NCBI RefSeq assembly: GCF_051622035.1
Contig: NC_135357.1
Span: 18,845,256 to 18,909,255 of the forward strand
Length of the DNA stretch: 64,000 nt
DNA from: Arctopsyche grandis
Lineage: Eukaryota > Arthropoda > Insecta > Trichoptera > Hydropsychidae
Direction of reading: 5' to 3'
Part shown: one piece after another, positions 1 through 49,684 of the stretch
Position numbering within the stretch: the first letter of the stretch is position 1
Layout of the letters: every line of letters begins with the position of its first letter
Notes under the pieces: generated by a model
Databases searched by the model: none
The model's input: the letters and a program-made list of their open reading frames with translations, nothing else
Told to the model about the DNA's origin: nothing
Program-made: the position numbers and the translations under genes

Positions 1-2154
<2,154 letters not shown>

Positions 2155-6233: not shown

Positions 6234-9200
6234 TAGTTTAATGCCCGTTGAAAATTCAACAGGTGGTTTCGGAAAGAAATTGATATGATTTAAAATAAAG
6301 TTACAATACGAATAGTAATAATTAATCGGAATCTGAACTGAAACAGGAATCGGGATTCGGAACTGAAACAGGAATTGAGAATCGAAACTGAAAAAGGAAT
6401 TGAGAATCGGAAATGAAATAGAATTCTGGATCTGGAGCTGAAAAAGTAATCCGGACCCGGAATACAAAATGCATTCAAAAGTTTAGCTGTTATGTTTAGT
6501 TTCCAAAATGTAATACTTTCCGATTATAAACAAACGGTCATTGACCTCGCAACCTTGTATATTATTATTACACATAACAAATTACATACATACATGATGT
6601 ACATTAAGCATACGTTTTAAGCTTTTAAGTAAGGTGTTTGAAATTTATTTGAAGACAAACAAATGTTTATAACGAATTAAATTATTAAAAAGGTGAACAT
6701 GTTTGAGTACCAACTGTCAAATCTCGGGTCCAAATCAGTCCAAGGACGTGTATACATATATAGATCTTGTAAACAGGTTATATCCCAAATGCGAATCGCT
6801 ACCAGGATAACCGCCGCTACGAAAATCGCGCGCGCGGGTCTCCTGTCACACAAAAATTCATCGCACAGGAAAATTTCCGTACAGAAAACTGTCCAAATAT
6901 TGCTCAGCATGTTTTTTTTGACGAGATTTTTATTATTTTTAATAATAAAAATCTCTGCCCAAATATTGCTGAGCAATATTTGGGCAGTTTTCTGTACGGC
7001 AATCTTCCTGTGCGACGAATTTTCGTGCGCCAAGAAATCCGCGCGCGCGATTTTGTAATCATTTTGTCGTGGACGTTCTGTCGTTAGACGTTTAGTCCGT
7101 AGACGTTTCGTCGTTGAACCATAGAGGTGATACATAAATTATATTCATAGCCACATTTTAGATTTATACAGTGTGTATAAATTTATATGAACATAATGGG
7201 TCATAATGGATTCTGGCTCGTGACGAGCCAGAATGTTAAATTACAGAAAACACAAATATTGGAAGGCAAAGATCGAAAATAGAAAGATCTTAAGTCGAAA
7301 GATCAAAAAAAAGGGTGCATGGTAAACGGTACATACTCACGTACATACTCTCTTAATTTGCGCGAGCAGGGTACAACAGGAACAAGAGGAACAGGCTACG
7401 GGAGACCCTTAACAGGCTTTTCCCTACGGGAAAAGCCTGTTAAGAGAGTATGTACCGTTTACCATGCACCCTTTTTTTTATCTTTCGACTTGAGATCTTT
7501 CGATTTTCGATCTTTGCCTTCCGATATTTGCGTTTTCTGTAATTTAACATTCTGGCTCGTCACGGAGACCGGAACATAATAAAGTGGCGTAACTATGTAC
7601 TATGTAGCGGGGGTAAGCAATGCTTACGGGCCCACGGAGATAGGAGGTCATAAATGCAGGTAGTGAAAAACTATTTCGGTTTTCTTGAACCTAGGAAAAT
7701 TATTAATATGTCGGAAAAATATATTCCAGACCATTGTTTGAATATCCAGAAATTTTCTCAAATGAATTCGAATCTCAATTTACACATGTAGTTTTATTAA
7801 TAAAGAAAGATCTTTCTGAAACAATAACCATAAGGCAATTTTTAGAATTACTTATTACCAAGTACAGTTGTTTGGAGAGTGATTTTTCAGAAGTATATGT
7901 ATACCACATTCATGTTATTTTTTACTCTTCCGGTAACTGTGGTTAATGTAGGAAGAACATTCAATAAATAAAAAATAATTAAAGATTACAAAATAAATTC
8001 GATCGGTCAAACCAGACTCAATTAACTATCTTTGCTTACAATTGAGCACAAAGAAGCAGCCAAAATTGACTTCAAATAATTAATTCATTATTTTGCATTT
8101 CGAACAGCAAGGTTCGAAATAAGAAATTTTTAAATAGGTGAGTTCAATTAAGGAAATTATATTATTTATCTACATATTAACAGTAATTATATATACATTA
8201 ATATTGCGTTGCGAAACCAAAAATTTGGTATTTCGATTTAAAAATTCGACGGGGGGGGGGCCTTGATGATTTTTTGCTTATGGGCCCAAAATTCTTAGTT
8301 ACGCCACTGACATAATACAGTATATGTATGTATGCATATTTGACCGAACTCAATCACAAGTGGCAAGAGCAGTTAAGGAAGATATACATAGGTACTTCAG
8401 AGATTTTTTTTTAAATTTATTTACCTGTAAGGCCTTCCTGGTATATTTGTAAAAATAAAAACAAAAAAAAAATAAAAAAAAAAAATAAATAAAAATTTTG
8501 TGCTTCGTTAAATTGGGTCGGCATGCAAGACGATGGGTGACATTTTTAAAATAGACGACGAGCAAATGGTACAATCGTTATATAAATTGAATAAATGTGA
8601 ACATACATATGTACCTACACACGCACGTGTGTGTGTACATATGTAACATTAATTAAATTCTAAAATGTATTGTTACGATTATACATATTAATACTAAATT
8701 AAGCAAATTTCAAATAACAACGTCTTCTTTTCGCACATAGGAATGAATTATTATTAAATCTTTCACGAAATAATCGAATTGAGATACGTTGATTTGATAT
8801 AGTCAACAGGTTATTTAAAAATTCTTACGTATTGGTTATCTCCAGGGCTGGGTGCGCTTGTCACCGGAATGGGCGTAGTTCTGTGTACATCTTCATGAGC
8901 CACGGCACTTCCTGGGTTCTGTATGGCCCCATTTCCGGCGCCGGGACAGCAGAGATACCAGCTTCTGCTTCGAGTGACACCACTAGCGTTCCAATCATCG
9001 CCATCTCCATCTAATGTCACTTGAGCGCAAGTTTCAGGCTCGTCGTAGTGGCCGCCCCTCTTACCATCAGGCATGGGGAACGTACCGGCATTTGAGTACG
9101 TGATGCTCTTCCTGGCTACATTCGGCTCGTCGTAAGTGAAGCTCACGTCGTCCGCTTCCAAGTCCAAGTTTTTACAGAGATACGCTCTCGATCTGTCGGC

Positions 9201-12200: not shown

Positions 12201-15200
12201 CTTTAGGTACAACAAATACGAATTTTATGATAAGCAGTACTAAGCCATATCATATTAAATCTTCTAAAGTCCATATGATATGTACATATATACAGTAGCG
12301 TCGCTAGGCCCGTGCGGGCAGTAAGGTCTGCACCGGGTTACACCACATTGTTCAAATTGAAAAACGCTAATTCAACATATTCGTTGTGTGGCGGTCCTCG
12401 AACGGCTACACGCTTCATTGCAATTTCTGAATATATAGTTTTCTGTATTTATACAGCTTTCTGTATTTATACATCTACCCGAAATCTGTTTGGTGCAGTT
12501 ATACATATGTAGCAACAAACATGAGCCATAATTGACATTTGTTCGGATTCCTGAGAAATCAGTGCATGTACCTAAAGGTAAAAAGGTTAACTGATTCAGT
12601 CAGAAGAAGACGCAATCCAGAAACAACGTGTGAACTTGGCTTCTCTTTTGGCGCTTCTCTCTCTTAAGTCGTAATAACAGATATTAATAATTAATAAAAA
12701 ATATTTTTTAGGTGACACCATCCCTAGCAACGCCACTGGATATATAGCCAGCAGTATAGCTCGGTGGCTGCATAATGCTAACCGAGGTTAGCCGAGCAGT
12801 TATCAAGTTCAAGCCCTAGGTTGACCTGGATTGAAAAGAATTTATTCGGAAGTATTTCTGTAGTGCTGTTGTTCAGACTTAGATATTTGTGACTTCGGTT
12901 AGATCGTTTTCTATCAGAGATTGCTAATTTATTTGATTTCATTATTGAAACGGTTCCTCATCAAATTGGCAAAAACATTTATAACCACTATTTGTCACCA
13001 CTATTCGAATATGATTTCAAATTTACAATCTATAAATTTATACATGGTTTAGTAATACCATAGGCAACCCGTAATGTATACCACATACATTACCTTGAAA
13101 GGAAAAACCTGAATTATTCCAGCATCTACAAACATAGAATCGACACAAATTCAAAAATGAACATACAATATCTGTGCACCAAGCCATCGATATGCGCTTC
13201 ATAAATGAAAATGTCTGATAATATATGGTCATATAATCGCCATTAAACTAAATTATCGAATCATTTGGCAACAGTGAATATACATAATTATGTATGTATT
13301 TACATACATTACATACACCACGAAACGTGCTGACGTCTCCGTCGTTTGTGTACTTTAATTAGAGACACAATAATGCCATTAGCTGAAGGCATCCGAGGAA
13401 ATGTACACATTCATCAACATACTAACGATTTGGCGTACATTGATGTGAAATTACCCGTTTTCGTAGAGTCGGTTCTATCTACATACATATTTACATTTCC
13501 CACTTCCCACGTTCATCAATTAATAATGCACGAGGTAGATCAAATCAAGTTCAACTACAAACACACACTGTTGACACGATAAAATGCAAAAATTTTAGTC
13601 ACACATGAACATGGTCAAACAATTTTAAGTTTAACTGGAAATCAGGGACGTGGGCATAAGCAAGTAAGGCAGCGCCCAAGGGCGGAACATTGAGGGGCGG
13701 CAAACAGAAGAAGTAAAAAACACAAAAAAATAATTGAAATTATCATTATCAAGTTTACATTTTATAACAAATACAAAATTTACCATTCACGAATGAGTGC
13801 ATTCTGATTACTTTAATTAAAATATACGACAATATGTATTCAATAATATCTATCATTAATGTTTGTATGGCATTTTAAGAGGGGGCGGCATTTTTAACTT
13901 CGCCTAACGGCGGCACATAATCTCGGGACGTCACTGCTGGATGTAATATATAATTTTGAAAGACACTATGTATGTAAGGTTTAAAGGTTTATTGGGAGCA
14001 TCGAAGACAAATCAAAGTTTCAATGACGACGACATCAATATGGCCGAATTTTTTTTTTTCGATTCAAATAAATTTAATAAAAAAACAAATGAATGTTTAC
14101 TATTAGATTGTTTTGTCATGCTTTAACTGTTTATATTACAAATACCGAGCGAAGCCGGGTAAAACCACTAGTATACTATATACTATAAATAGAGCATACG
14201 TAATAAGTGAAACAATATTTTTTAAGTATCCCTCCTATAAAAAGGTAAAATATATAAGAAGAGAAAAGAAAAACAATGAAATTGTATGAAAACATGATAC
14301 GGAATAAAACGCCCTCATATTTTATTTGATTGAAATTTATATTTTTTCATAATGCAATTACGGGTTGCCCCTGAGCGACACTTATGGTATTAAACTTGTA
14401 CATATGTATATACATTTGAAATCATATTCGAACCGTGGTGAAAAATAGTAGGGAATGGTTTTTGCTCACTTGATGAGGAACCGTTTCAACAATAAAATCA
14501 AATAAATTAGCAATCTCTAATGGGAAACGATCGTCTTGGAGGCATAAACATCCAAGTCTAACCATCAGTACTGCAGATATACTCGGAATAAATTATTTTC
14601 AATTAAGGTCCACCCAGGGCTCAAATTCGGCAGCCTCTCGGTGGATAGCATTAACCTAACCGTTAATGGTATCCACCGCTATATATTTATTTATTTTAAT
14701 TTTCTTACATTTGTTGCGCCATTTTGCCTTTTGCTGCCGATCCAGCACGTTGAAGGAGGGTTGACTAAACTTTGAAAGATACCGATAAGAGTATTTCTAC
14801 GAATTATATTGAAATTAAGAATCTACATATTTATCAACTTTCAACTTAAATAAAAAAATTTTGAATGTATATTTTAGTACACACTCAATTGAACGTGAGA
14901 TTTTGAGTTACGATTATATCGATAAATAAAAATGGCGAAAATGTACGAATCAAATAATACTAAAATATTGAGAACTTTATTAAATAAACAAATTTAAATA
15001 CAATTTATATTACCCGATGACATATCGCATGGGTTTTGGCATATGAAGTTATTAAATAAAATAAATGTGTCGGTTCGATCCGCATGCGGTCGAATTTTTT
15101 CAAATACCTTTTAAATATATTTAATTTAATATTTATATTGAATAGTTTAATATGAAAAAAGGTAAAAACTACCTACCTACCTACATGTAAACAATATAAA

Positions 15201-21200: not shown

Positions 21201-24200
21201 CAACGCGATGTCGTAGAAGAAAATTGGGACAGGAATACAGTACAACGGTGCTCGCCAAGTGAGCTGTTTTTGGGTGTAAACCTTTTTTTCGACTAATAAA
21301 GGACGAATACTAGTCAAGAAATTGATCTTGTTCTCGCATCTTTTCAAAGGAAAGGATGATTACTAACAAAATTAAATTAAAATTATAAAATAGAAAAAGA
21401 TCAGTATATCAGTAGCTATTAAAATATATACAATATATTCATTCATAGTTTTGGACCATTGTGTCATTACAGGAAGAACCTAATGCGCCACAATGGCCTA
21501 CAATATAATATAATATATTTTATATATAACTAGCTGAACCCGGCATGCGTTGCAACGCCACAATAACGCATGCAATTCCCGTTCCCATTTGTCGGAAAAA
21601 CGCAGGTAGCGAACTCGTTGGTCGAGACGCGAAAACATTTGAAATTATAGCGTTGCAATGACACCCATTCCCGTTTTTTCCGTTTCCGTTCCCGTTTTTT
21701 TTCACAGTAATCTTCCCGGACATGCATACAACAAATCCTAAAAGTTCCATCGTAATTGGTTCAGTGGTTTAGGAGCCTATTCGAGACACACACAGACATT
21801 CATTTATATATATATAGATATAATATATTTTATTATATCTAATATATAATTTCGAAAGAAACTTTGTATGTCAGTATGTTTGTAAGTATTTTTGGTTGGG
21901 AACTTCGTAAACAAAACAAAGTTTCTATGACGACGATTCAATTTTTTTTTTCGATTCAAATAAATTTAATAAAAAAACAAATGAATATTTATTATTATAT
22001 TCGCCAGGTTTAAGCTGTTAATATTACAAATACTGAGCGAAGCCGGGTAAAACAACTAGTATAATATATTTTGTGAACATAATTTTGTAACAATAAAAAG
22101 CATTTAAAAAAAATACTTTTTTAATATTTAGCTGCCAGCAGGGATGTTCGTTTTATTTAAAAATAATACTCTCAAAAGAGCCGAATAGGTAAAAACAGGT
22201 AATAATGTTTATTACGGACGGACAGGCCGATATCGTTAAATGTAAGTACAAGCCTAATTATAAAAGTATGTAGGTATAAAGTCCAGTGGTGTGCGGTGAA
22301 ATTCTCCCTGTTTTCGTCGCACAATCTTACTTACATGTGTGCAAGCAAAACACAATAGGATGCGGTATGACGTCACAGCATCCTCTTGTATCCTACTCGC
22401 GCAAATGTTAATAAAGTTGTGCGATAGAAACAGAGAAATTTCCACCGCACGCCACTATAAACCTCCCAGACAGAAAAATAAAAGGCAAACGACAGATCTG
22501 ATCTAAAATGTTTAACACGAAAATATCGACATTGTTATTGATTTATTTTATTCCAATTCTTAGTACTTGTTTATTTATTTTATTAAATCTTGAAAATCAA
22601 TATATTTTATCTTGAAAATCCCTATCAACTGCATCTATAGAATAAAAAAATAGGCCAATAGGATAATACTGGAAAAATGAACTACGTCCAAATATATGTA
22701 TATAGCTCGCGTGGCGACCAATGCAGTATAATGAGCCAGTATTGTATTTGCAGTAGTATTCGCTAAAATGAGGCTGTCTGTTAGTCGAAACCAGTCGTAA
22801 AAAAATATTTTTTAAAAACTATTTTGTTTTATATTCCTTCAATAGTGCGAACTGTAAAATGATCTGTTTCGTTGGTATATTTGTAGAAGGTTTACATATA
22901 TTAGTTTCGCTTGGCCCAATGTTATTACAGTATGTAGTCTTCGACGATTGTACAAGTTAGATTTTCAGTATCAAATGGAGATAATTTCATTATTTTAACA
23001 ATATTTCATTATTTTATTATGATCTTGTTAAGTATTTCTATCTTCTTAATACTTTATGTTTATAATATTTATAGTGTTGTTAAGTAATAAAAAAATTGAA
23101 TAAAATCTGACAACCGGAAATAGAACTTTTGTCTTGTGTAAGTTTCCCTAAATTTGCGCTCAATTTGTATTTAAAACGCTCTCATAGCTGGTATGTGTGA
23201 ACCTGTATGTATTTCTATAATTTATGTATGTATTCCATTATCGAATTTTGTCTTTTATACTTCTTATATTCCTCAAATACATAGAATCAGTCATGGATTG
23301 GTCACATCCAATGTTTTCTTGTTCATAACTACTTGTTGAACAGATTGATTGAAGTGCATTGCTTAAATATAATTTTATTTCTGATGTACATATGTACCTA
23401 TATGTATGTTAGAATGACATTACAATTTCACTGACTCAAGTAATGAGTACGGATGTAACAATAGAATTACAAATTCACTTTTTAATGTTAGTGAAATTAT
23501 AATTTCACTTGTGAAAAGCGTCAGAAGCGTAAAAAAATCAGTTAGGGGTGAATGTAAAAGCATCATTCGGATCGTCGTAATCATACATTTTATTTTCATA
23601 GTACGTACATAATATCAATTAATTATTGAATCATAAAGAATTCTATAAAATAATCTTAAGTTGGTATTTCACTATCATCCAAATGTCAAAAATTATGATT
23701 TCACTAATAGAGGCCAATGAATATGTAATTTCAGTAGTAAAAGATATAACTATACCCAATGAATGTTTAACTGGATATACATTCACTGAAACGTCAGTGT
23801 AATTATGATTTCACTGCTGTTAAAATTCAACTCTAACATATACATTATGAAGTCTTTTAGACCAATCTGTACACGTGAACATCCTTTTTGATACCGATTT
23901 AGTATCACCCCAAGATCTACGTTCATCCTCTCCTACGACTCATATTCTTTTCTATTTATTTCCGCTTAGCGTTTGGCGGTAAGCTATTACGAGTACGTAA
24001 CGTTTATTATATTGAATGAAAAATTCGTTCAAACAAACAAAATTTAAGGAAACTCGCAAATATACATATGTACTTCAAGAAATAAAATATATGTATGTAC
24101 TTCAACATGCGAACTGAAAGGGGGGACTTGTTCCTACGAGCTGAAATGCATTCTCAATTTCGGATAATTTAAAAACGACAACCTTTTCCATACAACTTAT

Positions 24201-27200
24201 GCATATACACATTAAATTAGCAAACCGTTAATATGAAGTTTTATCATCAGGTGTTCTCATTTATTTTTCGTTTGACTGAAAAAGTCGCATTGTATTCTAT
24301 AGGTTTACCAGTATGCAGAATGTGTATGTGTCATTGCTAGAGATCGGCGGTCGAGTTGCCGCCATAAAATAACAATAGACCTCTCCATTGTCCGAGAAAG
24401 CAGAAGAGCAAAAAAATGGTTGACAAAATAAATTGGCAATAGTGAACCACTTTTTTAGCCGTCGATACAGTGGCGTAGCTACCGCGCCCGCAGACCCCGC
24501 AATGCGGGGGGGCGCCGAGACTTGGGGGGCGCCACAAAGCGGCACGCCTTTTTCACTGATTTTTTAATTTGTTCTGTAATTTCTTTGTAATATATTTTTT
24601 TAAAACCTCTCTTATATTTCAATCTATTTGCATCTCGTTTTATTGTATGTCAAAATATAATAATGTACATACATTATTATATTTTTAAGTCATCCTCATT
24701 GTGTTTAATATTTGTTTATTTGTTGAATACACAAGTATACCACAGTGTCTTCACAGGTCACTCCAATATGACACTGTGGCCAGAGAATGTAATTGATCTA
24801 TGCCAATAAGGCTGGAAGACTGCCTTCTTTTTCCATCTTTTGAACATCAGTGCCATTTTTCAACCTATTTGCTAAGAATTCTCTCTTATTCTTGTATATA
24901 TTTTTTCAATGTGTTAAAACAGTAAAACAAAATTGTATGAGATGGAAAAACTAATAAAATTTACAAATTTATAAATTTTTCGCTGTCAACATTAACAGGT
25001 GGGAAGTTTTTAAGAAAGATTCACCATCAGTTACTTTATGTTTAAACAGATTGTGCACTGCTTGTTGATCGTCCAGATAAAACTATTAATGCACTTCGAT
25101 ATATACATAAAAATAATGTATGAATTATTAATTTGAAAAGTATTTTTGCTGTAAGAAAATAGTATGAATATATGGGGGGGGGGGCGCCTTAAAATATTTT
25201 GCGGGTGGGCACCTGTAATTCACGCTACGCCACTGCGTCGATAGATGTAAGAATAAGACTAAACATAAGTTTTCGTCATTTCCAACGAGATGACGTACTT
25301 ACACTGTATCAATGAAGGGTCTAGATTTTTGTAATGAGTATGTTTTCAATTGTGGTTTTTCGTGTGATATAGTAGTTTTTTTGACTACAAAACGTTTAAC
25401 AAAAAATTGAAAGGACGATCAAAATTTATGACATGACGACAAATTTCCAGTTAATGCATGTGTGTGATTGTATGTACGTAGTAAGTAGGTGGTATTTTTA
25501 AATCTCACTGTATTGAGCGTAAAATTCCGAAGGTCAAAATGGAAACCCCTTCCCCGGTATATGGGTGAGTCGAAGAAATACGAGAACAGCCGAAAGATGC
25601 CGAACGATATCTACCGTTATTACGTTCGATGGACGAGACTCGGCCGTCTGAACTTTCTGTCGCATCCGCTCAAAAAAGAAAACTGTAAAATTGTTGAAAG
25701 ACTTTTTTTCGAAGAAATACAGACACTTGTGCAGACATCGTTCCATACATGATATAAATATATAATGCGTATTCGGTGGGGTGATGACCGATTAGTACAC
25801 ATGGACAAGTATAATACATGGTAAAATTTCCTATTCAGTTTATTTGGTGAAACTTTTATCGAAGTGAATATTTTAAATTACCATAGATAAACCGTTACAT
25901 CAAGAAAAATGGTAATCGCCAGAACTAAATATTCCTCTTTCCTCAAACGACTTCTCAACTAAATATAGGCCGTTTGAAGAGGATCAAAAGTAATTCGCAA
26001 GGATAATTTGATATTCCCACAAGTCAACGTTTCTTAATCACTTTATCCAAAATTTTATATTCAGATACCACACATCTAGATGATTTTGATTTTTACAACG
26101 AAAAATTCGTTTTTAACCCATTGAATGCTGACCAACGCAGATCGGCGTTTTGCCAACAGTGATGGGCCTGAAAAACGCTGATAGGCGTCGTATTTTGAGC
26201 ATGTACAAAGTAAACAAGAATACTACCCGCTAAGCCTTTCCAGGAAGCATTGAAAATAGTGTATTGAACATGGGTCGTATAAACCGTGTCATTCATTTGT
26301 CAACGTTTATTAAGACTGGTTTACACCGGAATTTCTGAATTTATAACCATAGCAGAATTTCCCAATGGAAATCCCTAACTGCTGAGTATTTTAGATTGTG
26401 GCTTGGCATTTAGATTGTGAGCATTACATTTTAACAACAATGAAGAAGATGGAACTAGTTTTGGAAAAATACAATTAATCGACTTCTTTTGTTTATTTTA
26501 TATTACTGCAAGATATATTAGAGAGTCTAAGCACACCTTTACAAAACTAGAAATCCTCGGAAATAGTTATCTGTGGTAGTGATCTAGGTTTTGTTTGGAT
26601 TAGTTAAAAAATTTATACCTGCTTTTTATTGGATTTCTAAATAATTATAGTTGGAAATGTTGGCGAAATTTTCAGCGTGGCGGACTTTCAACAGAAAAGA
26701 CGTCAGCACTCAAAGGGTTAAATAACGTTACACTCTGCGTGGGCCTAAAATGTGATGATTTATTACGAAGAGGATAAGGCAAAAAGGGATAGAAAATGTA
26801 ACGTCACTAAATTAACTATCATGATTATAGCCAGCAGCATAACTCAGGGGTTGCGTTAATTCCAACCACCAAGAAGTTCCCAGGGTCAAGCCCTGGGTTG
26901 ACTTCGATTGAAGAAAATTTATTCTGAGTATTTCTGTAGTACTGCTGGTGAGACTTGGATATTTGTGACTCCAAGTTGATCGTTTCCTATCAGAGTTTGT
27001 CAATTTATTTGATTTCATTGCTGAAACTGTTCCTCATCAAATTGGCAAAAACAATCCTACTTTCTATTTTTCACCACTACTATTTGAATAAGATTTCAAA
27101 TTTAAAATCTATAAATATATATGTATGTACTAGTTTAATATCATAGGTGTTGTTCTGGGGTAAAACCCGTAATGGCATCATGGTAAAATATATATTAAAA

Positions 27201-29782
27201 ATAGAAATATCCAACATAAATTTTCAGCAAATGAAAAGATTCAGTACTATGTTCATTCAATGTGGCTATTGCTCATAAACAAACATGAATCTTGGGCCTT
27301 ATTAACGTCATACACTATACCTCGAAGGAAGTATCCTAATGGGATTAAATGATGCATCTCCAAATTCACTACACTTTTCATATTAGAATAATGCTCAGTT
27401 AGACTTAAGCTTGTAAATTTTAATTTTATTTAGATTTAAAAAAAAAACTATCAGAATAATTGCTAAAAAGTGTTGAAAAACAGTGAAAAATCTCCTTGTC
27501 CTCATTTTAATCTCATAACTAGACAGCAGATGATGATTAGGGATGAACATGAATTCAGCGCTGTTGGAACGTGTATTGTTATTTCCCATTGCCCTAATGT
27601 GTATCCGTCCCTTAATCACAACATTGTTTTAGAGCCCGGCCACATCGGGTGACTTGTGGGCAACTCTGTGGGTGACTTTGTTGCAAGTGCAGTTATATGG
27701 AGCATGCCACAACAGACAACTCACAGGTTGCTCAAGTCGTAAGTCACCCAGCTGCCAAGATCCGTTGGCGGCGTTGGGTCTGGTCACGGTGATTTCATTA
27801 TCTTAAGCAACTGTTACAATCAGTCAAAATGTATATCATTGTATTGAATGGGTGCCACACTAGGTGATTATTTGCCGGCGAAAACTCTATATTGAAAAAA
27901 CTATTAGCATGTGTGGCTGCATCGTCACATATTGAGAGGATTTTTGGTCGCTTCTGGTTGCCTGAGTTGGGTGACCAAGAGTGACCACGAGCAACTACGC
28001 TTAGGCTACAAATTCACTCACAGAGTTGCCCTCAAGTTACCTGATGCGGTCAGGCTCTAGGGGTTTCCATTAAGATTCTTAATTGATCCAATTCAGTATG
28101 TACATGCATATGTTCCTCAAATTATTTTTTCCATGGATGGCCCAACAATCAATTTTATTAATACGTATGTATGTATATGTACATGTATGTAATTATTTTG
28201 TTGGGGCAGAGATATGAGGTCTAAAATAAAATTTCTAAAAACAAATCTACAAAATATACAAAGTAACTTACTGTACTTGCTAAGTCAGCTATTGCATCGG
28301 GTGGAGCTGTTGTTGAAGGAGGCACTAAAGGTTCTGGACTGAGATCTCTCGCACCCGAATCCCATTCCCAAAGTTCTTGTTTGCCTATATAATACATAAT
28401 ATATTTATCATATTGTATGTGTGTACATATGTACATACATATAATAAGTGGAATATAAATTTTCGATCCGAATTAAAATAAATATTGTATACTAACTGAA
28501 ACTGTTTCCACTGTTGCTAGCTGATGCTGGTATGTCTTGAGAAGATTCTCCTCCACTATGGGTTGTGTCTGCTATTTTTAATGCTTCGATTTGACACCTA
28601 AATAATTATAATTAATAATTAAAACATATATCAAATTTTAAATATATGAAAGAATTTGAAAATAAACCTAAGAGCTTTGCGGCGACTGAGAAAATCTTTG
28701 TAAGATACCCTTCCACTGCGATCAGCACCAAGCTCAGTAAGAAGTTCTTGTACACATTGACCAAGTTCGAGCTCTTGGCAAACCATTTCCAAATCAGAAC
28801 TAATAAAGAAATTGTCACAGTAAAAATATTTACACTTTTCAGATTCACATTGACAAATAAAAACAACAGTATAATTTTACCCAAAGTATAATATCTATCT
28901 TTACAGAAGTATTATGTATGTATATTTAGTAGGTTTTTGAGTTTTTGTGGTAAAGCTGTTTTCAGAGTAATTGATGCAAGAAAATAAATGCATTTGTAAA
29001 AGTTTTTGAAAATTGAAGAGAATTTTATATCTTATTTTAAATGTGCTGTATCTGCTGTACGAGATCTCCATTTTCATGGAGTATTATATATTAAAAAACT
29101 AAGAAAAACCTTGTAAAAATTACCACTTACACGAAAACCATGTGAAGAGGTATGTAAAAATGACTTATTGTTAAAAATTCGTGTGTGAGTCTGTGTATGT
29201 ATGTATATTAGAGATAATTCGAACACTGTTAATCCTATCACATTGAAACTTGAATCATGTACATATGTATGTTGAAACATGTGTAGAGAACCCTCTATAA
29301 CCATAACTGTTATGTATATAGTATTAAGTGAAATTTGTTTTTAATACTATTTATATTTTTCAAATATATATAATAGATAAAGTGGTAGGTTGAACAAGTA
29401 TGATTTTTAAAATAAAAAGCTCAATAAGAGTTCTGGCATTTTTTTGATAAAGAAGCACTATTATCATTAATAATAGTATTAGTACTAATATTAATTACTA
29501 CTGTATATGTAGGTAAACGTTAAAAATTTTTTTCTAAAATTTTAAACTTTGTATCATTGTAGGTGAAATAAGTTTTATATTAAAAAAAATAATATTATCT
29601 ACTTCGCAAATTTAGATGTTCATTTAATTCCATATTATACAAGAAGATATTAAGTTTCATACAAACCTATCTATATATCCATCGCCATTGTAATCACATG
29701 CTTGAAATAGCTTCCGAACTCGTTCTTCATCTGCTATTGAGCTAGTTTCACTCAAAGAATCATCAAATGGCATTCCTGACAT
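2155..29782 (-). CDS. MCC: MCC homologue (EF-hand and coiled-coil protein)
   Basis: Assembled exons, 5' to 3' on the minus strand: 29782-29667, 28799-28668, 28597-28497, 28384-28272, 5522-5409, 5322-5169, 5069-4963, 4882-4429, 4346-4222, 4155-3998, 3913-3790, 3726-3566, 3359-3232, 2903-2785, 2699-2622, 2551-2435, 2350-2286, 2197-2155. All junctions are GT/AG, phases agree, and the total is 2409 nt (802 aa). The N-terminus carries an EF-hand loop (DYNGDGYID, residues 30-38) and a second degenerate one (DRSGRVSYKDF), as in the long MCC isoform. Family matches follow: LHLAAVSSLKNEVLEL and ERLTELHGVIAEL (first coiled coil), AVEAYDVLLALAE, and LDMETAVLMQ. The middle exon (4429-4882) is rich in Arg, Ser and acidic residues. 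The first exon follows a good acceptor, so a 5' UTR exon lies upstream, probably near 30000. In vertebrates MCC is a cytoplasmic and junction-associated scaffold linked to Wnt/beta-catenin and NF-kB signalling. The C-terminus is short and lacks the vertebrate PDZ ligand. Confidence 0.9.
6151..6232. repeat. (TA)n microsatellite
   Basis: A run of about 80 bp of TA/AT dinucleotides with spurious Tyr-Ile frames on both strands. Confidence 0.95.
6328..6462. repeat. degenerate tandem repeat, unit about 24 bp
   Basis: Five to six degenerate units of the form GGAAT-(T/C)GRGAATCGGAA-CTGAAA follow each other. The frames that cross it are repeat-driven and not a gene. Confidence 0.75.
6823..7056. mobile_element. 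foldback (inverted-repeat) element
   Basis: Two arms of roughly 90-100 bp are near-perfect reverse complements. The left arm runs from AATCGCGCGCGCGG through CAAATATTGCTCAGCA. The right arm runs from TGCTGAGCAATATTTG to CCGCGCGCGCGATT. The centre also holds a smaller AT-rich inverted repeat. I found no clear target duplication. Confidence 0.75.
7197..7571. mobile_element. palindromic foldback MITE, copy 1
   Basis: The element is one long imperfect palindrome with arms of about 180 bp, from GTGACGAGCCAGAATG to CATTCTGGCTCGTCAC. It is flanked by a direct 8-bp duplication, GAACATAA (7189-7196 and 7572-7579). A near-identical copy lies at 49284-49676. The next element (7582) is inserted immediately after it. 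Confidence 0.85.
7582..8309. mobile_element. hAT element relic
   Basis: Ends AAGTGGCGTAAC and GTTACGCCACTG are inverted hAT-type termini (first base decayed from C). The direct 8-bp duplication ACATAATA lies at 7574-7581 and 8310-8317. A frame at 7734-7946 loosely resembles the stretch just before the hAT dimerisation domain, then hits stops, so no transposase is intact. It includes a poly-G run near 8250. Confidence 0.85.
8405..8490 (-). repeat. truncated copy of the ACAGG-loop stem-loop repeat with A/T-rich tract
   Basis: Read on the minus strand it has an A/T-rich leader, then CCAGGAAGGC, then CTTACAGGTAAA, where the match to the locus at 32707 stops. The right arm of the stem is missing. 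Confidence 0.6.
8829..9694 (-). CDS. candidate alternative MCC exon, about 288 codons
   Basis: An open minus-strand frame, clearly GC-richer than its surroundings, ends in a strong donor (GTAAGA, intron from 8828) in phase 0. That is exactly what the next MCC exon (5522-5409) needs. The possible acceptors at 9694 or 9688 leave phase 1, matching the exon ending at 28497. It could therefore replace the exon 28384-28272, or be joined to an unseen 5' exon. With the 9694 acceptor, the A left over from the exon ending at 28497 would make ATG. The frame has an in-frame stop upstream and no early Met, so it is not a free-standing gene. The peptide is acidic and low in complexity (Asp, Gly and Asn rich, with RRKKKHKFGRRR) and has no domain I recognise. 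It may equally be part of an unrelated minus-strand transcript. Confidence 0.5.
10082..10938. mobile_element. hAT element (CAGGGCTG ends) hosting a nested MITE
   Basis: It begins CAGGGCTGTTGAATAGG and ends ACTCCGACGCCCTG. Internal sequence such as CCGACTGCGACT and CGACTCCCGACTCCG belongs to a widespread hAT end type. The flanks (TACATAAT, GTTATTAT) are only a weak duplication. A second MITE is inserted at 10293-10534. Confidence 0.7.
10293..10534. mobile_element. hAT-type MITE nested in another hAT element
   Basis: Terminal inverted repeats (starting CAGGCGCGGCTCGTGCATAG) match at both ends for over 30 bp and extend into an imperfect palindrome. The 8-bp target duplication CATATAAC is perfect (10285-10292 and 10535-10542). 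There is no coding capacity. Confidence 0.93.
12293..12738. mobile_element. hAT-type MITE
   Basis: Ends CAGTAGCGTCGCTAGG and CCTAGCAACGCCACTG are inverted. The flanks CATATATA and GATATATA match at 7 of 8 positions. A SINE starts a few bases downstream. Confidence 0.8.
12747..13075 (+). mobile_element. tRNA-derived SINE, copy 1
   Basis: The head resembles a tRNA promoter: TAGCTCGGTGG (12757-12767) fits box A and GTTCAAGCCC (12807-12816) fits box B, about 40 bp apart. A conserved body of about 250 bp follows, with the segment GGTTCCTCATCAAATTGGCA. Further copies lie at 26830 (plus), 14360 (minus) and 32936 (minus, partial). Confidence 0.8.
13643..13936. mobile_element. hAT-type MITE
   Basis: Ends CAGGGACGTGGGC and CGGGACGTCACTG, G-rich subterminal stretches on both sides, and imperfect flanks CTGGAAAT and CTGGATGT. 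A Helitron copy abuts it on the right. Confidence 0.65.
13944..14171 (+). mobile_element. non-autonomous Helitron, family A, copy 1
   Basis: About 225 bp ending in GAGCGAAGCCGGGTAAAACC and then CTAG, followed by host T. The 5' end reads TAATATATAATTTTGAAAG, lacking the leading TC seen in better copies. Confidence 0.7.
14360..14686 (-). mobile_element. tRNA-derived SINE, copy 3
   Basis: Reverse-complement match to the body and head of the SINE at 12747, including TTGATGAGGAACCGTTTC and the degenerate box B area near 14625. The head is more diverged than in copies 1 and 2. Confidence 0.7.
16046..16399 (+). other. 117-codon open frame with weak FLYWCH-like look
   Basis: The frame contains YWFC, then C about nine residues on, and a late H, as FLYWCH zinc fingers do (YWFCTTRVVGNC and KHDE). 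A Cys-rich insertion separates the halves, the opposite strand is also open, and no neighbouring exon was found. It could be a transposon-related relic or chance. Confidence 0.2.
17140..17725 (-). pseudogene. LINE relic, reverse-transcriptase C-terminal end
   Basis: On the minus strand the frame at 17725-17447 ends with YECETWTLNAKM and TQRIMERCMFG, characteristic of the C-terminal end of insect endonuclease/reverse-transcriptase LINE ORFs. Past it, disrupted frames give RMDERWTKRMPEWYPR and KVKGRPQ-like pieces and finish near GWNQWL, the usual end of this ORF. Frameshifts and stops make it inactive. The first 90 bp share sequence with 24362-24467. Confidence 0.75.
17894..18108 (-). mobile_element. 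non-autonomous Helitron, family A, copy 2
   Basis: Minus orientation. It starts TCTAATATATAATTTCG after host A, and ends CTAA before host T, the A/T insertion pattern of Helitrons. It contains the GAGCGAAGCCGGGT subterminal block. Confidence 0.8.
20041..20495. repeat. two direct copies of a ~200-bp repeat
   Basis: Segments 20041-20245 and 20306-20495 are near-copies, sharing TTGGGTATTCTATGGGTT, GCATGAAAACTTCATTC, TGGCA-TTTTAAAGCGATCG and ATTGCCTGACCGATTAGCGA. A diverged relative of the last part is at about 49830-49935. Confidence 0.8.
20700..21110. promoter_or_regulatory. GC/CpG-rich block, possible promoter or 5' exon
   Basis: About 400 bp of clearly GC- and CpG-rich sequence, with TCGCGG, GCGCGT and GACGCG repeats, sits in otherwise AT-rich intron. 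It ends in a polypyrimidine tract (21003-21063). Both strands have 80-90 codon frames, which is expected from GC richness. It could be a promoter for an internal MCC transcript that uses the exon at 8829-9694. No TATA box or splice donor was convincingly assigned. Confidence 0.35.
21456..21496 (+). repeat. conserved-loop stem-loop, locus B
   Basis: A ten-position stem (CCATTGTGTC with GCCACAATGG, one mismatch) encloses a 21-nt loop containing TTACAGG and AATGC. The same loop with different stems is found at 24740 and 32707. Confidence 0.6.
21530..21818 (-). mobile_element. non-autonomous Helitron, family B
   Basis: Minus orientation: host A, then TCTATATATATATAAATG, AATGTCTGTGTGTG, and a 3' part with GCGTTGCAACGCATGCCGGG ending in CTAG before host T. 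The palindromic GCGTTGCAACGC near the 3' end fits the Helitron subterminal hairpin. Confidence 0.75.
21838..22059 (+). mobile_element. non-autonomous Helitron, family A, copy 3
   Basis: Starts TCTAATATATAATTTCG after host A and ends AAAACAACTAG before host T. It lies head to head with the family B copy, 19 bp away. Confidence 0.82.
22284..22457. mobile_element. hAT-type MITE
   Basis: Ends CAGTGGTGTGCGGTG and CACCGCACGCCACT are inverted, with imperfect 8-bp flanks ATAAAGTC and ATAAACCT. The left end matches the element starting at 41036. Confidence 0.75.
23408..23837. mobile_element. inverted-repeat element with TTTCACTG repeats
   Basis: The ends GTTAGAATGAC and CTCTAAC are inverted. Repeated AATTTCACT and AGTGAAATTATA motifs occur in both orientations inside. 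A comparable structure is at 33918-34191. Superfamily not assigned. Confidence 0.5.
24468..25235. mobile_element. hAT-type element
   Basis: Ends CAGTGGCGTAGCTAC and ATTCACGCTACGCCACTG, with a perfect 8-bp target duplication CGTCGATA (24460-24467 and 25236-25243) and G-rich subterminal blocks. It carries the stem-loop at 24740 inside. No intact transposase. Confidence 0.92.
24740..24779 (+). repeat. conserved-loop stem-loop, locus C
   Basis: A perfect 10-bp stem, CCACAGTGTC with GACACTGTGG, encloses a 20-nt loop with CACAGGT and CCAAT. It is inside the hAT element at 24468-25235. Confidence 0.65.
26117..26717. mobile_element. piggyBac-type MITE, copy 1
   Basis: TTAA lies at both sides (26113-26116 and 26718-26721). 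The ends, CCCATTGAATGCTGACC and GTCAGCACTCAAAGGG, are inverted, as in piggyBac elements. The copy at 58310-58884 is similar along its length. No transposase frame is seen. Confidence 0.85.
26830..27170 (+). mobile_element. tRNA-derived SINE, copy 2
   Basis: Box A-like TAACTCAGGGG and box B-like GGTCAAGCCC, then the same body as at 12747 (TTTATTTGATTTCATTG, CCTCATCAAATTGGCAAAAA). Confidence 0.8.
27631..28058. mobile_element. inverted-repeat DNA transposon, unassigned
   Basis: Ends AGAGCCCGGCCACATCGGGT and ATGCGGTCAGGCTCT are inverted, and both subterminal parts repeat GTGACT and GGCAACTC motifs. No clear target duplication or coding frame. Confidence 0.6.
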
Positions 29783-29789
29783 ATTTAAT

Positions 29790-30060
29790 CTGTCAACAGA
29801 CAATAATAAAGGCTACTTTCAAGAATTTATGTCGGCATGTATTTATAATTTAGTAAATATCGCAAGACTCCAGAAATTCACTAAAAAAAATGCTAAAGTG
29901 AATTCAAAATGTATTATAATACTGTGAGAATAATTATTGTGACTAAGTTAAATCAAAAATTCTATATTAGTTACAATTTTTTGTCAACTACCGCTAGCCT
30001 AGCCCTTTGTTTACAACCGTCATCTTGACAGATCAGCCGCCATCTCACCACATTTTAAAC
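29790..30060 (-). promoter_or_regulatory. probable MCC 5' UTR and promoter region
   Basis: The exon holding the start codon is preceded by an acceptor (TTGACAG ending at 29790), so transcription begins upstream. The short GC-richer block at 30000-30060 carries only tiny upstream ATG frames and a possible donor (GTAGTT) towards 29990. The exact start site cannot be read. Confidence 0.35.
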
Positions 30061-30112
30061 ATAGCACCAAATTTTATAGCCATGCTAAGCTAAGAAATAA
30101 AAACGGTAAACA

Positions 30113-30309
30113 GATTATTTCACACATTGCGATCGGGCACACGACAATCGTTGCCACGATAATCGTGAATACAGAATATCTGGCACTTGAGTTCTCATTA
30201 GTATGATAGTTCGCGTGTTTAACTCTCGATGGATGGGATTTTCGGGTGCCAGATGTTCCGTGATCGAAGTTTTAGTGACGTGTGTGAGATCGCATTGTGC
30301 GGAATAATC
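30113..30309. mobile_element. MITE, twin copy 1
   Basis: About 197 bp with inverted ends GATTATTTCACACATTGCGA and GAGATCGCATTGTGCGGAAT. A close copy lies about 1 kb away at 31151-31347 in the same orientation. Confidence 0.75.
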
Positions 30310-30462
30310 ATGTACCAGCTCTAAGCCACGTTGGTTTACCGCTGTTTCACTTCCGTCCCGCCTGTCGTGTGTACAACGGTAAATGGGCTACGTAAAAAAA
30401 GTGAATCGCTACCAGGATAAACGCGAATCGATCGAATCGGTCGAACCGTTATGTCTTTATTT

Positions 30463-30639
30463 AGGGCCGGGCCGCACCGTGCAACTTTGTCCGCCAACTA
30501 GTTGCACGACACGAAAAAATGTATGGAAATGTGTGCGACAAACAAGTTGACGGGTGTGGCATGTCCCATCTACCTGCATGATTTGGTCTGGTCGCCGTCA
30601 ACCAAGTCGCTCGCAAGTCGCACGGTACGGCCCGGCCCT
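30463..30639. mobile_element. inverted-repeat MITE, unassigned
   Basis: Ends AGGGCCGGGCCGCACCGTGC and GCACGGTACGGCCCGGCCCT are inverted, with TTTA-like flanks. 177 bp, no coding capacity. Confidence 0.75.
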
Positions 30640-31150
30640 TTAGACAAGATATGTTGAGGAAAAGTGAACGAACGACTCATTGAAAATAGTGATTTGCTCA
30701 ACTGTAACTTAATTAGTTAAATATGTTTAACAAACTAATTGAAGAACGACACGACACATTCATAACGTTTTCATTTGAAAATTACCTCGTATTTATTGAC
30801 GTGTTTTAGGCGCTAATTTTTTTGCAACATCTATGTATATATTGCATACTTCGCACACGCTACCCACCGTCATATATGCATATAAATATTTGTACATTAA
30901 GGTGACCATTCATACTGGCTTTGCCAATACAGTACTGGTTTTACCAGTACAGTACTGGTTTTTTGAGTATTTATCCTGACAGAATCTTTGGGATGGGCCT
31001 GTTTATAAATATTGAAATTGATTTTTTTCAAGTATAATAGAATTTAGAAACATATTTTTGATAACAAAATTCCTGGATTTGTATCATAATATGTAAAATA
31101 GTGCCCCAATCAGGCAGATACAATGGATGCATATGTATGTACGGTAAAGG

Positions 31151-31347
31151 TATTATTTCGCACATTGCGATCGCGCACACGACTATCGCTGCTATGAAAA
31201 TGGCGAATACAGAATATCTGGCACTCGAGTTCTTGTAAGTATGATAGTGCACGCGAGAAGCTCTCGATGGATGGAATTTTCGGATGCCAGATGTTCCGTG
31301 ATCGAGATTTTAGTGACGTGTGCGAGATCGCTCTGTGCGTAATAATC
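31151..31347. mobile_element. MITE, twin copy 2
   Basis: Near-identical in layout to 30113-30309, sharing AATACAGAATATCTGGCACT and GCCAGATGTTCCGTGATCGA. Confidence 0.75.
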
Positions 31348-31954
31348 ACCGAACTATTATATTTAAAGATTTAAGTTCGAGGTCTCGACAAAAGCAACTA
31401 GACTAATTTTAATATGTAATATTTGATATTCAAAAATTTTAGGCTAATTATACAGGTTCGTGACTTTTAATTGATATCCGTCTCCGAATATTACACAATA
31501 TTTCTTGTGCATTTTTTTAGTTTTGAAAGGCCATATCAAAACAATTTACGATGTTTACCTACAAGATATGAAAAAATATACATCAATAATTATGTATGCG
31601 ATCTTGAATATGATTGCCTACTCATTTCTTTGAATTTTTGATTATTGTAAATTGAGAAACCGGTTTTAATATCTCAATATGGAATGTAAGAGTTGGACTG
31701 GTTTATAATGTAATATAAATATATTATACCTATTTGGATTAAGCAAGATTTTTAAATATGCACTTCCTAAATTGAAATACATATATTATATTATACGTAT
31801 CCGTATACAACAATTATTAAAAATAAATTTGAATTTTTAAATTTGGAAACGAAATAAATAAATTTAGTTTTTAATTCAAATTTACCGTATTACATTGACA
31901 TATTTTATTTTGTTAACCATAAGAACGTGATAATGCAATGTTATTGGATATACA

Positions 31955-32477
31955 CAGTGGCGGCTCGTGGATATGATAATTGGGGGTGCTGTGGTAGATT
32001 AAAAATCAGTTAAAGTGCATATCAATTATATTTAATTAAAAATAATAACAATAATGAGATAAACCTATTTCAAAACAAAATACATCCGTCTATTTTTGCT
32101 ATTGGCAAATTTGTCTATAACTTTTTCATTAAAATTTTTCTCATCATATCTTTCTCTATTGAAAGCATAAATAAAGTTGTCAATCTCTCTTGACTCATTG
32201 TGTTTCTGAGGTAAGTTTTGATTCTATTTGTAGAAAAACATCGCTCAGGTTTTGCAGTTGTCATCGGAGTGGTAATCAAAATTTTTAAGAGCTTTGTCAA
32301 TTCTTTAAGAACATCGCATAAGTTATTTAGCATGGATAAATTTTAATATTATTGAAGCCATTTTCTATTGAACTGTTTATATTATTGAAGCCATTTTCAG
32401 TCCAGACTGAATCTCCGCCCATTAATAATTTTCTTGGGGGTGCTGCAGCGCCGCAGTGTATATGAACGAGCTGCTAA
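31955..32477 (-). pseudogene. hAT transposase relic (dimerisation domain)
   Basis: Begins CAGTGGCGGCTCGTGG and ends near a decayed AACGAGCTGCTAA. The minus-strand frame 32333-32115 reads TTAKPERCFSTNRIKTYLRN and MSQERLTTLFMLSIE, the hallmark of the hAT C-terminal dimerisation domain. The rest of the transposase is missing. Confidence 0.85.
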
Positions 32478-32706
32478 TTCTTCTCACTAAGTTAATTCTT
32501 CATTTATCGATATTTCGTAAATAAAGTAAAAATAGTAATAGCTTTAATAGTAAATTGTACATATGACTTCGTTTATAGCTTTAATACCAGAGAAATATAA
32601 TATTAATAGAAGTGGCTTTAGGTGTTCGTTTGTTGTCAAGTGACATTCTGTCCACGGACAGATCTAAATATTTTTTTATTTTATTTATTTTATTTTTACA
32701 TATATA

Positions 32707-32747
32707 CCAGGAAGGCCTTACAGGTAAACCCCAATGCGCCTTCCTGG
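32707..32747 (+). repeat. conserved-loop stem-loop, locus A
   Basis: A perfect 10-bp stem, CCAGGAAGGC with GCCTTCCTGG, and a 21-nt loop with TTACAGGTAAA and CCAATGC, preceded by a long T-rich tract. Confidence 0.65.
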
Positions 32748-32935
32748 CCAATTACAAATTTACAAATTACAATTCAGCATTTTTTTTTGTATAAGTCACT
32801 GAATTACGAGACACTAAAACTCGTAAATCAATGGGACATCTATTAATTTGTACACAAACTTATTTATTGTAAATTAATTAAAAACAAATTATAGGTGACA
32901 TATCGTATAGGAGGGATTTTTAGCCAATTTTTTTT

Positions 32936-33065
32936 CCGGGAACCGTTTCAACAATGAAATCAGAGAAAATTGGCAAACTCTGATGGGAAACGATCAACCT
33001 GAAGTCACAAATCCAGGTCTAACCAACAGCATACTCTGAAAAATCCATTTTCATCCGAGGGCCAC
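32936..33065 (-). mobile_element. SINE fragment, copy 4
   Basis: Partial minus-strand match to the SINE body (AACCGTTTCAACAATGAAAT, GATGGGAAACGATC), lacking head and tail. Confidence 0.6.
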
Positions 33066-33531: not shown

Positions 33532-36500
33532 ATGAGTCTTAAAGTTTACCTTTTGTTGTCTATTAATATTTTATGTCTACGCTTTGCTCATACACAGACA
33601 TGTAAGTTTATAGAGTACCATACCAAAACCTATGTGGTGCCGTTATTTGTCATAGTTTGTATAATGCAATGCAAGAAGTGTGATCTAATTGTTGTATAGG
33701 TTCACGTGTAATTATTTTAAAAGTTAACAAGGTAAATCTCAACTGGTGTTTGCCTGTTTGCGAATAAATATTTTTTTTCTGAGAAAGAAATTTGTGAATA
33801 ATTATTAATTACAAATCAACGTTTTTCACATTTGGTCACCTTGAAATTTGAGGACAACTGACCACAAATGTTGCTGCAAATGTATATACATATTCACATA
33901 TATGTATGTATATATATCACAGTGAAATTATATTTCAAGTGAAAATATATTTTCACTGACATCATAACCAGTTACATTTTCAGGGTTGGTTTTATTCATT
34001 TAAGATTAGATTGTTAGGGCTGTTATTATTTAAGGGTTAGGATAGGCTAGGTTAAGTAAGGGTTGGCGCTATTAATTTAAGATTGGGTTATTAGGGTTAA
34101 ATTTATAGAGTTTTTAAACGTTGTAAATTAATTGTTTGATACATTTTCATTGGTGAAAATATATTTTCACATGAAATATGCTTTCACTATAACATATACA
34201 TATATATACATATATATGTATGTATGTATGTACATATTGTTGCAAATACATTTTATATACTCGCAAATCGATGCAACCTTTTTAAACATTTAAAACAACT
34301 GCTATGACGTGTTATGTTGAATGTGAAAGTTTTCGAAAACTTTTATATTGTCAAGTATATAAAAGTGACATCATTTTTGATTATTTTTCCTTGTTAATAG
34401 TTATATATATAAATAAGTTTTGATTTGTTTTCCTTGTATGTTTAGAAATGGTCTTCTAGAAATATACATACTAAGATTTCATCTTCATGTGATCATAATC
34501 AAAAATAACATTTTAGTGCAAATAATTAATTGCATCAGAATTTTTTTTATGATTTTAGCAAATTTACCAAGAGTTAATTGTGTGGATAGATATAGTGGTA
34601 GAAGGGGTTTGTGTTCATACTACAATAATTGTTTTTATGCTCAAGTTTTATACGAATATCAACGAATCACACCAACAATTTGTGGATATATATGTGGGTA
34701 TATTTTTTAATTTTTTTTTATCTTATTAAAATTAAATATAACCTGTATTTTAAACACTTTTTTAGCATCATATCCTATAGTTTGCTGTCCAAATACTGAC
34801 CAAAATTCTGCACAAAAACCAACAAATAATGGGGATTTCACATTTCCGGAGAATTCAAATGATACTCCAAATAAAAATCCAGGAAATACAATAAGAACAA
34901 GTGAAAGAAGTAATTTTTTTATTATATTATACAATTTACTATTACTTTACTTGAAGTACTATTATTAAATACCCGGCTTCACTCGGTGTTTGTAACATAA
35001 ACAGCTTAAACATGGCAAAACAATCTAATAGTAAACATTCATTTGTATTTTTATTAAATTTATTTGAATCGAAAAAAAATAATATTTGACGATATCTATG
35101 TCGTCGTCATAGAAACTTTGAGTTTTTCGATGCTCCCAACAAACCTTTAAGCCTTACATACATATATGTATATACAAACTCTTTCGAAATTATATATTAT
35201 ATATTACATATATAAGTATAATAAGTGCATGTGGTGACTAGTCACCGGACCCAGAAGGTGCCGCGTATTGTTCAAAGGTTGTAAATGCTTTGTTAAAGGT
35301 TTGCCGAACCTTTTTTACAAAGGATTTACAACAATGGAACAATGGATAGCACTGTGACTATCCGGTGTCTAGTGATGAAATACATATGCACTTTGAGTAT
35401 CAGATCATTCATTCCATAAATTATATACATATATGTATGCAGTGATGTGCTGCTTAAATTCTATCAACCAGCTCGCACCTTGGCAAACACCCCCCTTCCC
35501 CATTTTCATACATTTTTTTTTCAAATTAAACAGAAAAATTACATTACAAAATTATTTATTTTACATTACATAAATTTATGGAGGCGTAGGGGAATGAATC
35601 GACGGAGTGTTGTACACACGACTATTTATTATTTATATTGATAATTAAATAAAAAAAATGTAAGAACTAATTCTCCGAACCAAAATTATTTTTAGCAACC
35701 AGCTTGATAGGGTCGGTGAAAACCCATAGTAGCACATCGTGCATATATGTACATATCATTATAGTTTATCTCCCACTGCTACATGTATACATTATATTTT
35801 TTCCTCGCTATTGTGCATTTTTTCCCTAATAAATATGATATTTTTCCTTGTTCATATTTTAAGAATAAATTTTCTCTTTTGCTGTTATTATGTAAATATA
35901 CATATTGTAAATTAGCTTATCACCAACATTTTTAATTTATTTTTTTAAGTATGTACGTACATGTAAAGTAGGATTTTGTCAGGATTAATTGATGGTATTT
36001 AATAGGATTTAGAGAGTGTCAATAAATTTTTTTATGAAATCAATCGCCAAAAAATATTTTCATTTGTACTTTTTATAAAGTTTTTTATTTTTTACTGGCA
36101 CGATATGAGTATGTACATATGTACATATATATGTATTGTATTATATGTATACACGAACTTTTTTTTTCACAAATTCTTAACATGGTTATTAAAATTCATT
36201 TAAATAATAAAATCCAGCTTTCTTTTCTAACAAAGCTTTTGAAGAGGTTGAAAAATTTCTGCCGCTTTTCTATTTCTTCTATGGTTTTGGGGGAGTGTCA
36301 TAGCCCTCTGCCCCCTCCCTGATTTAGTTCACCATACATACAAGTACTATATTGTAGAATCAGTAAATAGCCCACAACGTATATGTATGTAGATAGAGAG
36401 AAGTTGATACTATGAAAACTACAAATGTTATAAAAATAATAAATTATATATTTACAGAATGTAACCAATACAGTTCCAATATAATTCATAGAGTACAAGC

Positions 36501-41265: not shown

Positions 41266-41280
41266 TTTATATACATGTAT

Positions 41281-48385: not shown

Positions 48386-48463
48386 GACGACGGAATGCAG
48401 TTGCACAATATGTACAAAATTGCACCCAAATAGATCGGTGTCTACAATACGACTGCAGTTCGA

Positions 48464-48469: not shown

Positions 48470-48508
48470 GACACTATTGAACACTCCAGACGAGCCTTTC
48501 ACTCGCAA

Positions 48509-49676: not shown

Positions 49677-49684
49677 GTACAAAC

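Follow-up and report, generated by a model that had tools for sequence, protein, structure and literature searches.

The stretch of Arctopsyche grandis DNA analysed here is 64,000 bp long (positions 18,845,256 to 18,909,255 of the forward strand of contig NC_135357.1, assembly GCF_051622035.1; "the window" below), and it contains three short hairpins with related loops at 21456-21496 (locus A), 24740-24779 (locus B) and 32707-32747 (locus C), as a preliminary description of the sequence had stated. Direct reading of the window gives locus A as CCATTGTGTC, a 21-nt loop and GCCACAATGG, with 9/10 stem positions paired; locus B as CCACAGTGTC, a 20-nt loop and GACACTGTGG, with 10/10 paired; and locus C as CCAGGAAGGC, a 21-nt loop and GCCTTCCTGG, again with 10/10 paired. 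The arms are thus complementary, as described, and the stems had been attached to the wrong loci (CCAGGAAGGC lies at 32707, not at 21456). The statement that the stems differ at most positions was too strong, since the left arms differ at two of ten positions between A and B and at five of ten both between A and C and between B and C. Locus B has the least similar loop of the three (TTCACAGG...CCAATAT). The folding z values of A, B and C are -3.4, -2.9 and -5.0, with 0, 2 and 0 of 200 shuffled sequences folding equally well, and a chance origin of the hairpins or of the likeness of their loops is unlikely.

The informative strand is the minus strand at all three loci, since an A-rich stretch then follows each hairpin; the T-rich tracts that had been noted on the plus strand are present and are the reverse complement of this A-rich tail. 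The truncated copy that had been noted at 8405-8490 is also present, in the opposite orientation, and the right arm of the hairpin and the tail are directly visible in it. As minus-strand RNA, the hairpin has an outer stem of 10-11 bp and an internal loop with approximately G-C-R-U-U on its 5' side and approximately G-U-A-A on its 3' side, then a 3-bp inner helix (RGR/YCU), a variable apical loop of 4-5 nt and, after the stem, an A-rich tail of TAAA type.

A covariance model (R1) was built from an alignment (A1) of 34 hairpins chosen for at least 8/10 pairs, namely 33 hairpins of stem classes S1 (CCAGGAAGGC) and S2 (CCATTGTGGC) and locus B, which is of another class (SB). Locus C, an S1-class 3'-terminal hairpin (32703..32751, minus strand; -26.5 kcal/mol, z -4.97), scores 73.1 bits with R1 (E 1.3e-15) and was not itself a row of A1, although the identical sequence L020 was. 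Locus A, an S2-class hairpin with one decayed arm (21452..21500, minus strand), scores 67.9 bits (E 2.4e-14), and locus B (24736..24783, minus strand) scores 48.6 bits (E 1.3e-9); both of these were rows of A1. A fourth, decayed hairpin of the same group with 7/10 pairs, missed by the preliminary description, lies at 799..844 on the minus strand (R1 24.0 bits, E 0.0014); it was later included as a row in a second model, R2, and its score with that model therefore cannot count as independent. Locus B lies within a short DNA transposon of 768 bp at about 24468-25235, which has the ends CAGTGGCGTAGC and GCTACGCCACTG and a flanking 8-bp repeat, TATCGACG, and which we take to be hAT-like.

The hairpin is abundant in the assembly (475.7 Mb, 189 contigs, AT-rich). 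A pattern for the loop matched 8,481 times (4,231 + 4,250) and its reversed-pattern control 1,407 times (1,352 + 55); the control is not low, and we have no explanation for this. In twenty evenly spaced 3-kb stretches of contig C1 (60 kb in all), six hairpins in sense orientation reached E < 0.001, or about one hairpin per 10 kb of C1, a rough density that comes from six counts. Most matches in the assembly score 46-73 bits with R1, as against at most 21.0 bits in a control of 80 viral loci from IMG/VR that match the loop pattern (best R1 score 21.0 bits, E 0.082; best R2 score 18.3 bits, E 0.14). A stem of at least eight Watson-Crick pairs flanks 51 of 114 CCTGT[AG]A sites, in sequence largely chosen for the loop (42 remain without identical places, one of them apparently unrelated), and the corresponding figures for four other motifs are 1-3 of 35-90. 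For the loop pattern and for the two genome searches described below (with ORF2, and with a pattern excluding S1 and S2), the matches listed are a part of those counted.

The S2 hairpins end long interspersed elements (LINEs). Two of four pieces of the second open reading frame (ORF2), on the same strand as the hairpin and upstream of it, match Pfam RVT_1 above its cut-off (L045 and L046, E 7.2e-8 and 8.3e-13, respectively), and for 11 distinct S2 hairpins there is a match to ORF2, mostly to the C-terminal part, that ends 243-947 nt upstream, with 39-100% identity (L046 was the query itself). A genome search with one ORF2 piece gave 14,403 first-look candidates, the best 121 of which were scored; among these best candidates 119 matches are without a stop, with open frames of up to 1,027 aa, and 84 have an identical score and are 96% identical to the query copy. 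The S2 LINE family, with its many copies, looks young, and its motifs give the impression of a Jockey/CR1-like element. Among the matches listed, all four ORF2 matches between 0.54 and 4.28 Mb of C1 are followed after 378-423 nt by a listed hairpin that is correctly oriented. A TAAA-type repeat lies within 60 nt downstream of the hairpin in 68 of 76 copies and upstream, on the T-rich side, in 23 of them; the 76 were drawn from 105 matches by leaving out antisense matches, loci with the same place twice and matches below 33 bits.

Nucleotide homology to L046 spans 44-1,409 nt in 34 other copies. Part of this spread is divergence (L041 and L043 have an upstream ORF2 yet reach only 89 and 44 nt), but other copies match the LINE only over 52-93 nt that include the hairpin, at 96% for locus A of the window, 98% for L021, 97% for L006 and 92% for L003. 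Because these near-identical copies stop at the hairpin, they indicate 5' truncation with a kept 3' end. In the window this is the element at 21433..21502 on the minus strand, which consists of the 3' end (~70 nt) only; it matches the 3' end of the LINE in L015 at 93% over 71 nt and is 96% identical to L046 over the 52 nt of the hairpin. Another repeat-like sequence (ACTAGCTGAACCCGGCATGCG...) begins near locus A at 21530-21620, so the LINE fragment seems to abut a second element.

Eighteen copies with the S1 stem align as one element of ~440 bp that has the features of a short interspersed element (SINE): it is short and non-coding, has many copies and is well defined at both its 5' and its 3' end. 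Where the head is complete, copies start with GCCAGCAGC, and all end in the hairpin, followed in most by an A-rich tail. Letters resembling the A and B boxes of a tRNA promoter can be picked out by eye in the head (GGTTCGATCCC, and GGTTCAAATCC in L050) by comparison with the box consensus; ARAGORN found a tRNA in 0/12 loci, and there was no Rfam tRNA match. Locus C belongs to such a copy (32671..33063, minus strand), a member of the L013/L030 family in the 18-copy alignment (BLASTN 85% over 398 nt to L030 and 78% over 412 nt to L013) that has the S1 hairpin and A-rich tail and in which the tRNA-like head is missing or diverged. The truncated copy mentioned above (8419..8471, plus strand; BLASTN match to the L030 SINE at its 3' end, 90% over 51 nt) is cut inside the hairpin and keeps the right arm and the A-rich tail. 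Three more SINE copies in the window share the core: those at 12806..13041 (plus strand; BLASTN 78% over 218 nt to L013) and 14407..14643 (minus strand; 73% over 245 nt to L013) have another 3' tail and no R2 hairpin up to E 5, and that at 26891..27130 (plus strand; 76% over 245 nt to L013) is followed by a weak candidate hairpin at 27137-27187 that is not significant (R2 14.1 bits, E 0.17).

LINEs and SINEs can also be seen to share the tail alone. The LINE in L005 is cut short at its 5' end, and 68 aa of its frame, in the C-terminal part of ORF2, align with the S2 LINE at 38% identity. A hairpin of a further stem class, S3, begins 140 nt past the stop of this frame. The last ~80 nt are all that the L005 LINE shares with the SINEs L034 and L042 (81-82% identity). 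The cores of L034 and L042 match the S1 SINE L013 (76% over 329 nt and 80% over 173 nt, respectively), so S1 and S3 tails are both found on this SINE core; in L034 the core is separated from the tail by another repeat, and L190:2397 was judged by eye to be a further S3-tailed case of the core. The suggestion that the hairpin may be the terminus of a retrotransposon is therefore borne out by the LINE ORF2 upstream, the SINE bodies and the 5' truncation with a kept 3' end.

How different are the stems, and is their pairing kept? Away from the chosen places R1 found further classes, S3 (YCACAGTGAC) in several copies and S4 (CCATAGTGTC; 9/10 paired) and S5 (CTATAGTGAC; 10/10 paired) in one copy each; S1, S2, S3 and SB each occur in multiple copies with paired stems. 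A pattern defined by sequence alone, from which S1 and S2 were excluded, found 402 + 417 copies (control 1 + 0), and the ~100 of these that were listed are mostly S3. SB has at least eight further matches in the genome beyond locus B (control 0 + 0), a lower bound because the pattern misses even locus B, which has one base fewer in its loop; SB differs from S2 at three pairs, all of them compensated. The contrast of a conserved loop with locus-specific stems drawn by the preliminary description survives in part: between classes the 3' side of the internal loop is the most alike (identity 0.79), but the 5' side (0.68) is close to the stems (0.64-0.67) and the apical loop is at 0.43.

Between classes the two arms tend to change together. 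A1 has 57 cells with a double change, as against 23.7 ± 4.5 in shuffled alignments (0/500 reach the observed number). A3, an alignment in which the classes are balanced, holds 16 hairpins; 95.9% of its cells are paired and there are 39 double-change cells, as against 11.0 ± 3.9 in shuffles (0/500) and at most 9 in controls with slid pairing. A double change is seen at eight pairs (4.3 ± 1.2 in shuffles, 1/500 reaching eight), and the inner helix too changes on both sides, from GG/CC-type to GA/UC-type (pair 22-28 of A3). A5, which is A3 with six copies of the tentative class S7, is 85.7% paired and has 40 double-change cells (shuffles 16.0 ± 3.2, 0/500) and nine pairs with a double change, a number reached by 67/500 shuffles. 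In each of A1, A3 and A5, 0/500 shuffles match the double-change cells, the percentage paired or the covariation score, and slid controls give at most 16 cells. (L008 was dropped from one R1 survey as the same place as L007.) Within S1 and S2 the picture is different: the 35 stem departures in the 33 A1 hairpins of these classes comprise 19 unpaired positions, 16 wobbles and 0 compensated changes (locus B was set aside, so the count of 35 leaves out the three compensated changes found there). The selection for structure that had been suggested is thus supported between families, where double changes exceed shuffles, within the limits given below; within S1 and S2 there is only decay. One fixed stem genome-wide, which had been named as the outcome that would speak against it, is what is found inside S1 and inside S2 and is not found across families. 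A covariance-model search of the kind that had been proposed did yield further stem classes and double changes above shuffles, but not pair-type counts above shuffles (below).

Because the hairpin stands at the 3' end of LINE and of SINE copies, one LINE has many copies that look young, the stems differ between classes with pairing mostly kept, and an S3 LINE and S3 SINEs have nothing but the tail in common, we consider it likely that the hairpins are the 3'-terminal recognition hairpins of non-long-terminal-repeat (non-LTR) LINEs and of SINEs that use their enzymes, and we give this a probability of roughly 0.82. A number of observations weigh on the other side. The number of pair types is never above shuffles (131, 297 and 281 of 500 reach the observed value in A1, A3 and A5), and the number of pairs with a double change is reached by 122/500 shuffles in A1 as well as by the 67/500 in A5, as against 1/500 in A3; moreover, kinship of the rows alone can exceed shuffles in such a test. 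The pairing in A3 is partly circular because R1, a structural model, supplied 11/16 of its rows. Pairing is not an absolute rule, since ~28 of the ~100 listed copies outside S1 and S2 form an S3 subfamily with an uncompensated C-A mismatch, CCACAGCGAC / GTCACTGTGG (5/5 read), and the six listed copies of S7 (right arm GACGAGTGTA) have only 4-8 of 10 positions paired; S4 and S5 are known from their single copies. LINEs down to 39% identity (L043) still carry the S2 stem, so the stem does not simply track LINE divergence, and conservation on the 5' side of the internal loop barely exceeds that of the stems. As to the elements themselves, the endonuclease piece matches Exo_endo_phos_2 weakly (E 0.19; 12 bits, cut-off 27.4), clear target-site duplications were seen in 0/10 scanned SINE copies (one 7-nt match, in AT-rich flanks), and no LINE with the S1 stem turned up, no dedicated search having been made.

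Much of this would also be expected if an ancestral hairpin had simply diverged, its pairing being left over from old source elements and exaggerated by the search, with no present selection on it. S2, S3, S4, S5 and SB do still have much of the stem in common, and the uncompensated decay of individual S1 and S2 copies (0/35), the abundance of the mismatched S3 subfamily, the poor pairing of S7 and the origin of the 11 model-found rows of A3 are all in its favor. The double-change cells nevertheless exceed those of every shuffle and every slid control; SB, which was found by eye, differs from S2 by compensated changes at all three pairs; and the S1, S2 and SB rows, which came from the loop pattern or the preliminary description and none from a model, are each 10/10 paired. 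We therefore consider descent alone an unlikely explanation, though the best of those that compete with a recognition hairpin. Much less probable is a rewriting of the stem copy by copy, a mechanism that had also been suggested, in which template switching or gene conversion across the hairpin would make the arms match: the arms of a hairpin can template each other in principle, and L007:1482 has a small duplication within its stem, but with 0/35 departures in individual S1 and S2 copies compensated, and with the single-arm changes in the S3-like copies L210-L218 mostly staying unpaired (by eye), stem rewriting is not supported. Least probable of all is that a ~45-nt hairpin so close to a repeat end is a host structured RNA, a microRNA precursor or the end hairpin of a Helitron, elements that end in CTRR and have 3' hairpins (these last according to PMC3630058), given that no Rfam family reaches its gathering score within the window, that an A-rich tail and not a Helitron end follows the hairpin, and that ORF2 frames and SINE bodies precede it. 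On nine loci Rfam in E-value mode gave 18 matches, none of which reached the gathering score or concerned tRNA; the families matched are unrelated and for the most part microRNAs. The Helitron was rejected on the A-rich tails and on upstream frames that are LINE ORF2, no search for Rep/helicase being made.

The rest of the window holds other repeats and a long frame. Three related repeats lie at 7341-7576, 41070-41268 and 49402-49681, and an inverted repeat at 49378-49582 with 95-nt arms that are 98% complementary overlaps one of them. A dispersed repeat family around GTGCCGTTTATTGTTCAAATGTTGTAA is present at 35239-35371, 42770-42823, 51917-52049 and 60605-60737, two of the copies being 97% identical. 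The long minus-strand frame at 46907-48550 presumably encodes a protein resembling UDP-N-acetylhexosamine pyrophosphorylase.

If the hairpins are recognition hairpins, the ORF2 protein would bind the tail hairpin, reading the internal loop by its sequence and the stem mainly by its shape, and target-primed reverse transcription would start in the tail. Because the enzyme, on this proposal, reads the stem mainly by shape, the stem would be free to drift between families as long as both arms change together. We infer that ORF2 does the binding, that it is the internal loop which is recognised and that the selection stems from retroelement copying. According to PMC4176376, the ORF2 protein of zebrafish L2 binds a 3' stem-loop, and ZfL2 RNA with the stem replaced and the loop kept still retrotransposes (at about half the wild-type level for ZfL2-1), whereas a changed loop or an unpaired stem abolishes or sharply cuts retrotransposition. 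The same source reports that stem changes strongly reduced retrotransposition of eel UnaL2, so tolerance of stem changes is not general, and this too counts against our interpretation. The fish L2 elements (UnaL2, ZfL2-1 and ZfL2-2; same source) resemble the present ones in needing a 3'-terminal stem-loop for copying, and in that a LINE of the stringent type shares its tail with a SINE; unlike them, the elements here have their conserved bases in an internal loop next to a 3-bp inner helix, a variable apical loop, a TAAA-type tail and several stem classes, and the likeness does not come from sequence comparison.

A LINE/SINE-shared tail hairpin with a variable stem is also found in a monocot L1 lineage: according to the review PMC3747384, these L1s and ZmSINE2/ZmSINE3 share ~50 nt of 3' end with a hairpin, compensatory stem changes and a few conserved loop bases. 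They differ in belonging to a plant L1 clade, in which CGAG and UCU bases are conserved, and no sequence link is claimed. Lepidopteran SINEs are insect SINEs too; they are tRNA-derived, some with ATTT-type tails, and the words stem-loop and hairpin are absent from the main text of PMC8010984. In the open-access literature searched there was no paper matching the hairpin sequence strings or the hairpin itself. The hairpins thus appear to fit stringent-type LINE/SINE tails, a known principle, the new setting being several stem classes in one genome.

A more specific possibility, which we put forward tentatively and think more doubtful than not, is that the hairpins serve as exchangeable 3' handles, with two or more LINE families and a number of SINE families on one core using four or more co-varying stems (S1, S2, S3 and SB, and possibly S5 and S7) around one conserved internal loop. 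If this were true, recognition would lie in the internal and not the apical loop, SINEs would swap tails to change partner, and the stem may steer the choice of enzyme. What is known of the choice of RNA by LINE proteins comes from a few elements of fish, silkworm and plants, and a genome with several LINE and SINE families that keep one inner loop and have co-varying stems would serve as a natural experiment for learning which bases the protein reads and how SINEs come to change partners.

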